Assembly: GCA_016928165.1 (NCBI GenBank)
Contig: JAFGLH010000060.1
Location: 1-49,595 of the forward strand
Origin: Pirellulales bacterium
Lineage (GTDB): Bacteria; Planctomycetota; Planctomycetia; Pirellulales; Thermoguttaceae
Direction of reading: 5' to 3'
DNA length: 49,595 nucleotides
Below the pieces are notes generated by a model. The model saw nothing but the letters and a program-made list of their open reading frames with translations. It searched no databases and was not told where the DNA came from. The translations under genes were made by a program, and so were the position numbers. Numbering within the stretch: the first letter of the stretch is position 1; each line of letters starts with the position of its first letter. Below, one piece after another: positions 27,364 through 35,410 of the stretch.

Positions 27364-29670
27364 ATGGCCAGTCCGTTTAAGGTCTTTCGAAAAAACCAGA
27401 AACTGTGGATCGTCGGCCTGATCATGGTGGCGATGTTCGGTTTCGTATTTCTTCCCACGATACTCGATACAATGGGGGGGAGAACAACAACCAATCCGGT
27501 GGCATTTACGTCGAGATACGGCGATCTGACCGAATATGAACTGCAAAATCTTCAGGAGCGACAACGCAGAATACTGGGCATTCTCATCGACTTGTATCGA
27601 CCGCTCGGTTATAGCGAAGAAAACGTCGAGGGGATATTCGGCGGCTCCACGCCCGAGGAAGTGGCCGCGTCTTGGTTGCTGGCTCATCGCGCCCGGGAAA
27701 TGGGCATGGTCGTCGGCGACGATATGATTAAGGAGTTTCTCAACCAGTTCGCGGCCGCCGGAATTGACGTTCAATCGCTAAAGATGTTGATAAGACGCTC
27801 GCTCCGTTCGGAGCGGACGTTCATGGAATTGATGCGCGAAGTGCTGCTGGTGCGACTGTATAAGAATTATTTCGAGTGCAGCCTGGACGCCGTCACGCCC
27901 GCACAGCGCTGGGATTACCTCTGCCGCGTGAAGCAGCAGGCGGAGATCGAGGCCGCGCCGATCTACGCGGCCGATTTCCTCGGTCGGATCGAAGAGGAGC
28001 CGACGGAAGAAGAATTGCGGAAGTTTTTCGATGAGCACAAGGACAAATTGCCGCTGCCTTATTCCGCCGAGCCGGGCTTCAAGAGGCCGCAACTGGTGGA
28101 GCTGGAATACTTCAAGGCCGAGATCGACAAGTTCGACTCGCCGGAAGCGATCTCCGACGAGGAAGTGTTGAAGTGGTATCTCGCGAACAAGGAAAAATAC
28201 GACCGGGAGCATCAACCGCCCGCCGTCGAGACGCCGAAGGCTGCCGTCGAGACGCCGAAGGCTGCCGCCGATGAGGAAAAAACTCCCCCGGAGAAACAAA
28301 TCCCCACAAGCGAAAAAGAAGGCCCGGCCGGAGCGGACGGCGGCGAAGCGAAGCCTCCGACGGAGCAAAATAAAACGCCCCAGCCAACTTCTCCGGAGAC
28401 CGAGCCTAAAGCACAACCTAAAGCACAACCTAAAGCACAACCTAAAGCACAACCTAAAGCACAAGAGGAGAAAGTCCCGCCGAAGAGCACATCCTCGGCA
28501 GGCCGCTCGCCTTTTGTTTTCGCGTCCTTTCAGCAGCCGGACGACGTGAAAGAAGCAAAGCCGAAAACACCCGAAAAACCGGCCCCGGCTGTCCCCGAGG
28601 AAAAACCGAAGACCGAGGCCGAAAAACCCGCAGCGGCCGAGAAAAAACCGCCGGCGACAGACAAAGGGGCGGCCAAAACGGATTCTCCCCAAACGGCCGA
28701 CAAATCGGAAAACGGTCCCTCCGACGAAGTGAGAAAAACAATTCGTCGCGAGATTGCCGAGGAAAAAATCGGCGTCCTCTTCAAACGGCTGAGCGACGAG
28801 ATGGACCGCTATCGGGCCAAGCGGAACGAATATGAATACGGCTCGGCGGCGAAGAGAGAAGGCCGCACTCCGCCCGAGCCGCTCGATTTCGACAAGTTGG
28901 CGAAAGAGCACGGACTGACCGCCGGCGGGACCGGCCCGATCGCCGACTGGGACGCCGCCGAATCGGAGATCGGATCAGCCTTGCTCAAGAACAAGCTCGA
29001 ACGAGTGTGGCGGCACGCCTTCGGAGCAATGGCGAAGTTGCGTCCGGAGGAAGCCGAGACTCTCGGCGGAGACACCAAATATCTGTTCTGGAAAACGCGA
29101 GACACGAGGGAGGAGGTTCCCAAGTTTAAAGACGAAGGCGTCCGCGAGGAAGTGCTCCGCGCTTGGAAGATGGACCGCGCCTGGAAGCTGGCCGAGAAGG
29201 AAGCGGAAAAGCTGGCGGCCGAGGCGCGGCAGACCGGAAAACCGCTGGCCGTGACGTTCGCCGAAAGAAAACTTCGGGTCATCCAGCCGCCGCCGTTCAC
29301 TTGGATAACGCTGGGCAGCACGGGGACCGGACCGGCCATGCTAAGCGACGTCGAGGGGATCGACTACGCCGGCGAGGATTTTATGCGGACCGTGTTTCGA
29401 CTCCAGCCGGGCGAGATCGGCACGGCGATGAACGCACCGAAAACCGCCGCTTACGTAATCCGCCTGATCGAGTTCGAGCAGCCCTATAAAGCCCTCTGGG
29501 CGATGTTCAAGGCCGACGATTTCCGCAAATACGCACCCGCGGCCCAATTCGACCGTCAACAAACATACCTCGATTGGATCGAATCGATAAAAACCGAAGC
29601 CGAATTCAAGTGGACCGACGCGCATCTGAAGCTGATGCGGGAGGCAGAAGACGCCCGACAGGGGGGGTGA
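27364..29670 (+). CDS. Membrane-anchored SurA/PpiD-like periplasmic protein
   Basis: A 768-residue protein with one N-terminal membrane helix (LWIVGLIMVAMFGFVFLPTI). The following part resembles the SurA/PpiD N-terminal chaperone domain (YELQNLQERQRRILGILI, ASWLLAHRAREMGMVVGDD). A long Pro/Lys/Glu/Ala-rich segment, about residues 280-455, contains two exact repeats: VETPKAA twice and PKAQ five times. The C-terminal half is mixed and may hold a diverged peptidyl-prolyl isomerase region, but I cannot see a canonical parvulin signature. A role in folding exported proteins is the likeliest guess. The start has AGGA 9 bases upstream. It is followed by the FlgI-like gene in the same direction. Confidence 0.7.
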   Translation: MASPFKVFRKNQKLWIVGLIMVAMFGFVFLPTILDTMGGRTTTNPVAFTSRYGDLTEYELQNLQERQRRILGILIDLYRPLGYSEENVEGIFGGSTPEEVAASWLLAHRAREMGMVVGDDMIKEFLNQFAAAGIDVQSLKMLIRRSLRSERTFMELMREVLLVRLYKNYFECSLDAVTPAQRWDYLCRVKQQAEIEAAPIYAADFLGRIEEEPTEEELRKFFDEHKDKLPLPYSAEPGFKRPQLVELEYFKAEIDKFDSPEAISDEEVLKWYLANKEKYDREHQPPAVETPKAAVETPKAAADEEKTPPEKQIPTSEKEGPAGADGGEAKPPTEQNKTPQPTSPETEPKAQPKAQPKAQPKAQPKAQEEKVPPKSTSSAGRSPFVFASFQQPDDVKEAKPKTPEKPAPAVPEEKPKTEAEKPAAAEKKPPATDKGAAKTDSPQTADKSENGPSDEVRKTIRREIAEEKIGVLFKRLSDEMDRYRAKRNEYEYGSAAKREGRTPPEPLDFDKLAKEHGLTAGGTGPIADWDAAESEIGSALLKNKLERVWRHAFGAMAKLRPEEAETLGGDTKYLFWKTRDTREEVPKFKDEGVREEVLRAWKMDRAWKLAEKEAEKLAAEARQTGKPLAVTFAERKLRVIQPPPFTWITLGSTGTGPAMLSDVEGIDYAGEDFMRTVFRLQPGEIGTAMNAPKTAAYVIRLIEFEQPYKALWAMFKADDFRKYAPAAQFDRQQTYLDWIESIKTEAEFKWTDAHLKLMREAEDARQGG
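28222..28263 (+). repeat. 21-base tandem repeat (x2) in coding sequence
   Basis: GCCGTCGAGACGCCGAAGGC plus T, repeated exactly; encodes two AVETPKA units of the linker in the SurA/PpiD-like protein. Confidence 0.85.
28405..28464 (+). repeat. 12-base tandem repeat (x5) in coding sequence
   Basis: CCTAAAGCACAA five times without change, encoding PKAQ five times. Identity at the DNA level indicates recent expansion and possible length variation. Confidence 0.9.
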
Positions 29671-29777: not shown

Positions 29778-29806
29778 TTGACCTCCCCGGAACTTATTAC
29801 TATCCT
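29778..29806 (+). promoter_or_regulatory. Putative promoter of the FlgI-like gene
   Basis: TTGACC (29778-29783), 17 bases and TATCCT (29801-29806), 92 bases before the start. Confidence 0.4.
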
Positions 29807-29898: not shown

Positions 29899-31662
29899 AT
29901 GAAACGGTGTACGGCAATATGCTTGAGTCTATTGGCGATAGCCTTCGGCGGTTGCAACGGGCTGGATTTGCGCCCCCCAAGCCCGGAGGAACCGCTCGCG
30001 GTCGAACAGGAACGGCACAGGAAGCTGGTCGGCGACCTGGCCGTTCCCACCGGCATGGAGCCGATCCGCGTCGAGGACGTCGCTTTGGTGACCAAACTGC
30101 AAGGCACCGGCAGCGATCCCAGTCCCTCGCCGCAACGCGCCGCGCTGTTGGACGAGATGAAGAAACGGGGCGTCGAAAACCCGAACCGCGTTCTCGCCTC
30201 GGGGAACGTGTCGTTGGTCATGGTCGTCGGCTGGCTGCGGGCGGGCATCCAAGAAGGAGACCGTTTCGACGTCGAGGTCCGCACCCTCACGCACAGCGAA
30301 ACGACAAGTTTGCGCGGCGGCTATCTGCTGGAGACCCGGTTGAAGGAAATGGCCGTTTTGGGCAATCAGATTCGCAACGGCCACGTGCAGGGCCTGGCCG
30401 AAGGGCCCGTGCTGGTCGATCCCGCCGCAGGGCCGGACGATAAAATCCTCCTCTGCCGCGGTCGCGTGCTCGGCGGCGGCGTCTCTCTGATATCGCGCTC
30501 CATCGGGCTGGTGCTCACGCCCGGAAACATCAGCGTGCGAAACAGCTCGCAAGCGGCCAACGCCGTCAACAAACGATTTCACACGTACGAGAACGGCTTG
30601 AAGACGGGCATGGCGAATGCGAAAACGAACGAATATATCGAACTGAAAATCCACCCGCGATACAAGGACAACATCCCCCGCTACGTCCGCGTCGTCCGCG
30701 CCGTGCCGATTCGGGAAACCGCATCCCAGCGGATGCAGCGGATCGCCGGACTCAAGGATTCGTTGTTGAACGATCCGGCAGCGGCCGCGGAGTCCGCGAT
30801 ACGGCTCGAGGCGATCGGCGCCGAGGGCGAAGACGCCTTATTGGAAGGGATTCGCTCGAAGAACCCCGAGACGCGGTTCTACGCGGCCGAGGCGCTGGCC
30901 TATCTCGATCGTCGCGAGGCCGCCGAGCCGTTGTCGGAAATCGCCCGCAGCCAACCGGCCTTCCGCGTCTTCGCCCTCACCGCGCTAAGCGCGATGACCG
31001 ATTACATCGCCTACGACAAACTCTGCGAGCTGCTCTCCGAACCGAGCGCCGAAACCCGCTACGGGGCCTTCCGCGCGCTGTGGTCGATGGACAAAGAGAA
31101 GCCGTTGGTCAAGGGAGAGTTGATGGGAGATCAATTCTACTACCACGTGTTGGACGTTGACGGGCCGCCGATGATCCACGTCACGCGCAACCGACTGCCG
31201 GAAATCGTCGTATTCGGTTCCCAACAGCAACTGCTGACGCCCCTGTCGTTCAGCGCCGGCAACGAAATCATGATCACCAGCAAAGGGAAAAATGAAATCT
31301 CCATAAGCAAATTTTCCGTTCAGGAAGCGGACCAGAAAAGGATCGTCTCGACCCGCGTCGACGAAGTGATCCGCGCGGTGGTCGAACTGGGCGGAACCTA
31401 TCCGGACGTCGTCCAGGCCTTGCAAGAGGCAAAAAAATGCGGTGCCCTGAAATCGCGGTTCGAGGTCGACGCCTTGCCCGAGGCCGGAAGGTCTTTCGAC
31501 CGCGAGATTGCGGCGAAAGAAGGGCCGGGCGGGGACTTGAACCACCATAACGAGGGTGTCGAGGCTGGCGACTCAGACAAGAAAAAATCACCCAACAACA
31601 ATGATTCCGAGGAAAAATCTAACACCAAGAAGGGCTTCTTTGCTAAAATGTTGGGTAAATAA
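29899..31662 (+). CDS. FlgI-like lipoprotein with HEAT-like repeats
   Basis: A 587-residue protein with a probable lipoprotein signal (SLLAIAFGGC; Cys at about 18). Residues about 45-280 read like the flagellar P-ring protein FlgI: VEDVALVTKLQGTGSDPSP, NVSLVMVVGWLRAGIQEGD, TTSLRGGYLLETRLKEM and LAEGPVLVDP. Residues about 290-390 form HEAT-like helical repeats (ETRFYAAEALAYLDRREAAE). A beta-rich region and a charged Asn/Lys tail follow. FlgI normally forms a ring in the peptidoglycan layer around the flagellar rod, but no flagellar gene is in this window and the fusion with HEAT repeats is not a standard FlgI. An envelope ring or scaffold role is inference. smc follows after 115 bases. Confidence 0.7.
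   Translation: MKRCTAICLSLLAIAFGGCNGLDLRPPSPEEPLAVEQERHRKLVGDLAVPTGMEPIRVEDVALVTKLQGTGSDPSPSPQRAALLDEMKKRGVENPNRVLASGNVSLVMVVGWLRAGIQEGDRFDVEVRTLTHSETTSLRGGYLLETRLKEMAVLGNQIRNGHVQGLAEGPVLVDPAAGPDDKILLCRGRVLGGGVSLISRSIGLVLTPGNISVRNSSQAANAVNKRFHTYENGLKTGMANAKTNEYIELKIHPRYKDNIPRYVRVVRAVPIRETASQRMQRIAGLKDSLLNDPAAAAESAIRLEAIGAEGEDALLEGIRSKNPETRFYAAEALAYLDRREAAEPLSEIARSQPAFRVFALTALSAMTDYIAYDKLCELLSEPSAETRYGAFRALWSMDKEKPLVKGELMGDQFYYHVLDVDGPPMIHVTRNRLPEIVVFGSQQQLLTPLSFSAGNEIMITSKGKNEISISKFSVQEADQKRIVSTRVDEVIRAVVELGGTYPDVVQALQEAKKCGALKSRFEVDALPEAGRSFDREIAAKEGPGGDLNHHNEGVEAGDSDKKKSPNNNDSEEKSNTKKGFFAKMLGK

Positions 31663-31777: not shown

Positions 31778-35410
<3,633 letters not shown>

Follow-up and report, generated by a model that had tools for sequence, protein, structure and literature searches.

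A lipoprotein with a FlgI fold and inserted HEAT repeats is encoded beside smc and retained in planctomycetes without flagella

Our results indicate the presence, in a Pirellulales bacterium, of a lipoprotein in which HEAT repeats are inserted inside a complete FlgI fold. The gene lies in the window, that is, the whole stretch of 49,595 nucleotides that was analysed, and its product is referred to here as HEAT-FlgI. By sequence and structure it is a FlgI-fold protein; by clade, genomic context and co-occurrence it is not a P-ring protein. Given its FlgI-like build, its retention without flagella and the position of its gene before smc, HEAT-FlgI probably serves as a scaffold of the envelope, with a task outside the flagellum. 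We favour, with moderate confidence, a lipid-anchored periplasmic scaffold of FlgI type, possibly a ring, with a HEAT collar that binds an envelope partner. The features of the locus are collected in Table 1.

Table 1. Features of the HEAT-FlgI locus, in positions of the window.
Feature	Position	Strand	Basis
Promoter-like site upstream of the HEAT-FlgI gene	29778..29806	+	Consensus scan only
HEAT-FlgI lipoprotein gene, 587 aa	29899..31662	+	ORF; Pfam FlgI 5.1e-20, HEAT_2 8.4e-10; class-wide orthologues
Lipoprotein signal peptide, ending at Cys19	29899..29955	+	Sequence; conservation of Cys19
FlgI IRU-like domain (aa ~43-176), boundaries approximate	30025..30426	+	Pfam; P-ring fold match
FlgI OR-like domain and first IRL element (aa ~177-274), approximate	30427..30720	+	Alignment; VIA-align; canonical-FlgI HMM; limits from PMC8298488
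Inserted HEAT-repeat block (aa ~275-402), ~8-9 predicted helices	30721..31104	+	HEAT_2; model; alphaRep/HEAT matches
Remaining FlgI IRL-like domain (aa ~425-525)	31171..31473	+	Second FlgI match; HMM aa 470-523; model
Charged C-terminal tail (aa ~526-587)	31474..31659	+	Low confidence, unconserved
smc (chromosome condensin ATPase)	31778..35410	+	SMC_N PF02463 3.3e-69 and hinge; 115 bp downstream

The protein begins with MKRCTAICLSLLAIAFGGC, a lipoprotein-type signal whose Cys19 is invariant in 52 Pirellulales orthologues and conserved in at least 90% across 23 class-wide orthologues, so that both the signal peptide and the lipobox Cys of a bacterial lipoprotein are present. Lipobox-like signals also occur in most Phycisphaerae orthologues; those of Gemmataceae have signal peptides without the lipobox Cys. 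The Pfam FlgI profile PF02119 matches with E 5.1e-20 and 72.1 bits (family cut-off 25.3), its best stretch, aa 46-278, covering profile positions 4-232. For true FlgI, NCBIfam has subfamily and equivalog models with cut-offs of 300 and 557, and the protein stays below both, at 68.1 and 33.8. HEAT_2 (PF13646) matches aa 312-394 with E 8.4e-10 and 39.3 bits (cut-off 27.7), over a region modelled as a helical-repeat fold. In the class-wide alignment, the HEAT block has a mean identity of 0.65, with 35 columns at 90% or more, and is thus no less conserved than the FlgI parts (0.57-0.63), which suggests that it forms a conserved binding surface. The tail has a mean identity of 0.30-0.37 and a pLDDT below 60 from about residue 541. 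The original prediction of a lipoprotein with FlgI-type blocks, HEAT-like repeats and a charged tail is borne out, including the FlgI profile match on which it depended, and the tail is real, though unconserved and predicted to be disordered.

When the window's own genome was searched for FlgI in six frames, only two places matched, 30034-30732 (profile 4-232) and 31219-31467 (profile 266-343, E 3e-4), both within the same HEAT-FlgI gene and the second located 3′ of the HEAT block. An HMM made from canonical FlgI likewise gives two stretches, aa 35-277 and aa 470-523. In G167, a family relative, the second FlgI match starts at profile position 233, and the insertion accordingly falls at about profile 232/233. 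Since FlgI matches flank the HEAT block on both sides, the repeats are inserted and the FlgI fold is complete; an arrangement with HEAT repeats appended to half a FlgI is ruled out by the two halves. The N-terminal half had been described beforehand as FlgI-type and fused to HEAT repeats. The N-terminal match stands, but it is incomplete, as a second FlgI stretch follows the HEAT block, and the architecture is an insertion instead of a fusion. In FlgI, the domains span residues 12-159 (IRU), 160-230 (OR) and 231-346 (IRL) (PMC8298488), and the HEAT block thus enters a loop immediately beyond the OR/IRL border, close to where IRL begins. MAFFT aligned the beginning of the canonical IRL strand with residues of the HEAT block; the HMM matches and the model were relied on in its place. 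In the model, the region of aa ~425-525 contains two helices and strands.

The AlphaFold2 model of the monomer, built with the 52 Pirellulales orthologues, has a mean pLDDT of 88.9 and a pTM of 0.83, with low confidence confined to the signal and linker, the tail, and one short loop at about residue 155. P-ring proteins are its best structural matches, in keeping with the likeness first proposed: Foldseek ranks four of them first among the PDB entries (8z5n, 7cbl, 7bgl and 7nvg; E 8e-13 to 1e-11), and the top ones are P-ring chains from Salmonella and from an LPHT ring. VIA-align superposes aa 42-274 on P-ring structures with Z 15.9-17.8, and its next matches are alphaRep/HEAT proteins (Z ~8, aa ~270-400). 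All three domains of the FlgI fold are accounted for by the fold match over aa 42-274, the Foldseek alignment of ~490 columns and the profile match at 266-343.

HEAT-FlgI was found in 118 of the 119 Planctomycetia genomes sampled. A profile search of 392 genomes of the phylum gave long matches outside this class in families f7, f51, f60, f67, f73, f78, f89 and others, which we infer to be mainly Phycisphaerae. Family f46, probably Brocadiia, has canonical FlgI hits and gave partial matches only, which canonical FlgI explains. Of 427 relatives in a scan of genome contigs, the best 80 were all planctomycete records, the survey being one of planctomycetes. In a tree of the FlgI core of 47 HEAT-FlgI and 36 canonical FlgI sequences (35 planctomycete and that of E. 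coli), HEAT-FlgI does not group with canonical FlgI; it forms one clade apart, with support of 100/100, inside which Phycisphaerae and Planctomycetia groups split. This separate clade and its class-level split fit one ancient duplication followed by vertical inheritance, and HEAT-FlgI is an ancient FlgI paralogue family, ancestral to both classes. No account of the family was found in the open-access literature on FlgI or the P-ring in planctomycetes.

The distribution of HEAT-FlgI does not follow that of flagella. Among the 119 Planctomycetia genomes, 103 have FlhA-family matches and 64 have FlgH. HEAT-FlgI is present in 15 of the 16 FlhA-negative genomes, and wherever FlgI is detected in these it is the sole FlgI-family hit. 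Of 34 genomes tested for flagellin and the rod/hook domain PF00460, 26 have neither, the incomplete genome of the window being set aside: 15 FlhA-negative Planctomycetia, six genomes of f73 and f89, and five Gemmataceae-like ones (f5). G418 was not counted as flagella-free; it lacks FlhA, yet has rod and flagellin hits. HEAT-FlgI is kept in 25 of these 26 genomes, the sole exception being G456 (94% complete), where no copy was found, and FlgA, the P-ring chaperone, is present in none of the 26. In the window's own genome (88.5% complete), no rod protein, flagellin, FlgH or canonical FlgI was found. HEAT-FlgI is thus not tied to rod, FlgH and FlgA, nor does it strictly co-occur with a complete flagellar set. 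Species without flagella do keep it, and this retention, together with the strong FlgI match, supports the non-flagellar envelope scaffold that had been suggested at the outset. The flagellated family relatives G167, G357 and G424 have a separate canonical FlgI as well, encoded near FlgH and FlgA, and their HEAT-FlgI gene lies far from it or on another contig.

It is known that Lys63 and Lys95 of FlgI are important for assembly on the rod (PMC8298488). Of 35 canonical FlgI sequences from planctomycetes, 31 have K/R at position 95, versus Thr in 34 of 47 HEAT-FlgI; at position 63, where the alignment is less certain, K/R occurs in 29 of 35 versus about 10 of 47. The loss of most of these rod-contact lysines agrees with a protein that has ceased to hold on to a rod. 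It appears very unlikely that HEAT-FlgI strengthens the planctomycete flagellum as an additional protein of the P-ring or the basal disk. Such a role would agree with the FlgI fold and with the flagella of many Planctomycetia that carry HEAT-FlgI, and some FlhA-positive genomes do have HEAT-FlgI without canonical FlgI or FlgH. However, the gene persists in genomes that lack rod proteins and flagellin, its rod contacts are largely lost, and the loci that were read show smc beside it and no flagellar genes. Moreover, the FlhA-positive, FlgI-negative Gemmataceae that were tested have neither rod domain nor flagellin, so that their FlhA-like protein need not be flagellar. An accessory part in the flagellum is therefore largely rejected.

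Several FlhA-like sequences were noted along the way. The FlhA match of the window's genome (G000:C85:9753-11588) is in two pieces with profile positions 404-451 missing, and a similar split occurs in G454. The five f5 genomes (G409, G455, G395, G377 and G401) have strong FHIPEP/FlhA matches without rod domain, flagellin or FlgA, and FlgH is listed for none of them; the protein is possibly a non-flagellar type III export gate. In G121, G205, G327, G333, G339, G381, G421, G436, G442 and G448, a full FlhA is accompanied by a truncated FlhA-like paralogue, of 505-533 aa, whose match to FHIPEP is confined to the C-terminal half (profile about 309-656).

The most constant trait of the neighbourhood is smc. 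In every one of the 99 loci in which the start of smc is readable, it follows HEAT-FlgI on the same strand, and 96 of these loci have a gap of -1 to 291 bp. Among 50 dispersed loci of both classes it is the next gene on the same strand in 43, and in 19 of 20 outside Planctomycetia. Other neighbour families occur in at most 8 of the 50 loci each; families seen at 39-42 and at 27 loci are, by strand and offset, antisense frames of smc and of the HEAT-FlgI gene. The adjacency is missing from Gemmataceae-like loci and a few of Lacipirellulaceae. Between HEAT-FlgI and smc in the window, a consensus scan of the + strand gave no site resembling a terminator.

The gene 5′ of HEAT-FlgI varies by lineage. 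In the window it encodes a protein of 768 aa (27364-29670) that weakly resembles PpiD/SurA and has a long Pro/Lys/Glu-rich linker with PKAQ repeats; its match to NCBIfam PRK10788 (E 9e-5) is well below the cut-off of the model. In five other Pirellulales loci (L143, L067, L070, L084 and L088), the upstream genes resemble, by eye, yidD, rnpA and a DnaJ-type co-chaperone. The gene had been placed between a SurA/PpiD-like protein and smc, with no flagellar genes nearby. Both neighbours are indeed there in the window and no flagellar gene was recognised among the flanking genes examined, but only smc is conserved: among the loci read, the SurA-like gene accompanies HEAT-FlgI in the window only, and a conserved SurA/PpiD partner was rejected.

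The conserved linkage to smc suggests that HEAT-FlgI is co-expressed with chromosome organisation or with the FtsZ-less cell cycle, although a shared neighbourhood is not in itself proof of a functional link. SMC is cytoplasmic and HEAT-FlgI is exported, so that regulation or other proteins would have to mediate any such link. FtsZ is absent from all planctomycete classes (PMC8882080; PMC10632474), which makes a division role worth testing without thereby demonstrating it. A role in division or chromosome segregation, in which HEAT-FlgI would be expressed together with smc and form a periplasmic ring or scaffold where the cell divides or buds, is rather improbable. It could draw on the smc adjacency across two classes, flagella-free lineages included, on the lack of a terminator-like site before smc, and on the absence of many other divisome proteins from planctomycetes (PMC10632474; PMC8882080). 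Nevertheless, all this support comes from the neighbourhood, Gemmataceae keep the gene away from smc, and the two proteins reside on opposite sides of the inner membrane. In addition, f46, which would also be FtsZ-less, shows only partial matches of canonical type. The main text of an essential-gene study of P. limnophila (PMC10632474) does not mention FlgI, flagella or SMC. A more specific version, in which a duplicated P-ring protein with a HEAT collar became a rod-free periplasmic ring of an FtsZ-less division or chromosome-segregation cycle in ancestral planctomycetes, is more doubtful still; if true, it would explain the conserved pairing with smc.

Taken together, we propose that a P-ring gene was duplicated in an ancestor shared by Planctomycetia and Phycisphaerae and gave rise to HEAT-FlgI, which would have kept IRU, OR and IRL and acquired a HEAT solenoid in the loop near the OR/IRL border. 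The lipid anchor would hold the protein in the periplasm, most likely at the outer membrane, where it would work without rod, FlgH or the FlgA chaperone. Its FlgI core might self-pack into a P-ring-like ring or arc, perhaps touching peptidoglycan through the OR domain, and the conserved HEAT collar would dock an envelope partner. Oligomerisation, including a 26-fold ring around the rod like that of FlgI, is beyond the reach of a monomer prediction. The assembly of FlgI normally needs FlgA and the rod; since both are missing from flagella-free genomes, a P-ring-like ring may not form at all. The Gemmataceae orthologues, with neither lipobox Cys nor smc adjacency, count against the scaffold that we favour, and so does the lack of a copy in the flagella-free G456.

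Without a ring, the FlgI fold could serve as a module of a tether between outer membrane and peptidoglycan, with the lipid in the outer membrane, OR bound to peptidoglycan and the HEAT block recruiting an enzyme or transporter. We consider this possible, though unlikely. It would suit the conserved lipobox, the many hosts without rod or FlgA template, and the resemblance of FlgI-OR to peptidoglycan-binding OmpA-type domains (PMC8298488); on the other hand, all three FlgI domains are kept and conserved, and the inner-ring IRU and IRL would be superfluous in a tether. It is extremely unlikely that HEAT-FlgI builds the ring of the crateriform pits, the exit sites of planctomycete pili. These structures are single rings that survive boiling in SDS (PMC5287468), flagellar LP rings are chemically stable as well (PMC8298488), and HEAT-FlgI is near-universal in Planctomycetia. 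The described Phycisphaeraceae, however, have no crateriform structures (PMC8882080), which disfavours this role, as the family is present in Phycisphaerae-type genomes.

If the non-flagellar scaffold is correct, HEAT-FlgI would clearly exemplify a flagellar bushing protein that left the flagellum, with a complete FlgI fold in flagella-free lineages. Near-universal and paired with smc in two classes, in FtsZ-less hosts with an unusual envelope, it offers a concrete single-gene entry point to the biology of the planctomycete envelope or division. It also carries a warning for annotation, as automatic 'FlgI' labels in planctomycetes are no proof of flagella.

Among known systems, MotY, FlgT and the accessory proteins of the LPHT ring form extra periplasmic rings around the LP ring in Vibrio-type motors; these depend on flagella, whereas HEAT-FlgI does not. 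FlgI-OR resembles the N3 domains of secretins (GspD, InvG, PilQ), a similarity that is probably convergent (PMC8298488). Unlike secretins, HEAT-FlgI has no secretin domain. With HEAT_2/alphaRep proteins (PF13646) it shares a solenoid of helix pairs, but its HEAT block is natural, exported and embedded in a FlgI fold, and the Z of about 8 speaks for a common arrangement only, not for a common function. The closest relative is the P-ring protein FlgI itself (PF02119; 7CBL, 7BGL, 8Z5N), which has the same three-domain fold, in ~230 N-terminal residues and the C-terminal IRL, and is likewise exported by a signal peptide. In contrast to FlgI, HEAT-FlgI carries a block of ~130 aa of HEAT repeats near the OR/IRL border and, in most members, a lipoprotein signal; it has lost most rod-contact lysines, and it is encoded outside flagellar loci, in linkage with smc, in genomes that may have no rod, FlgH or FlgA.
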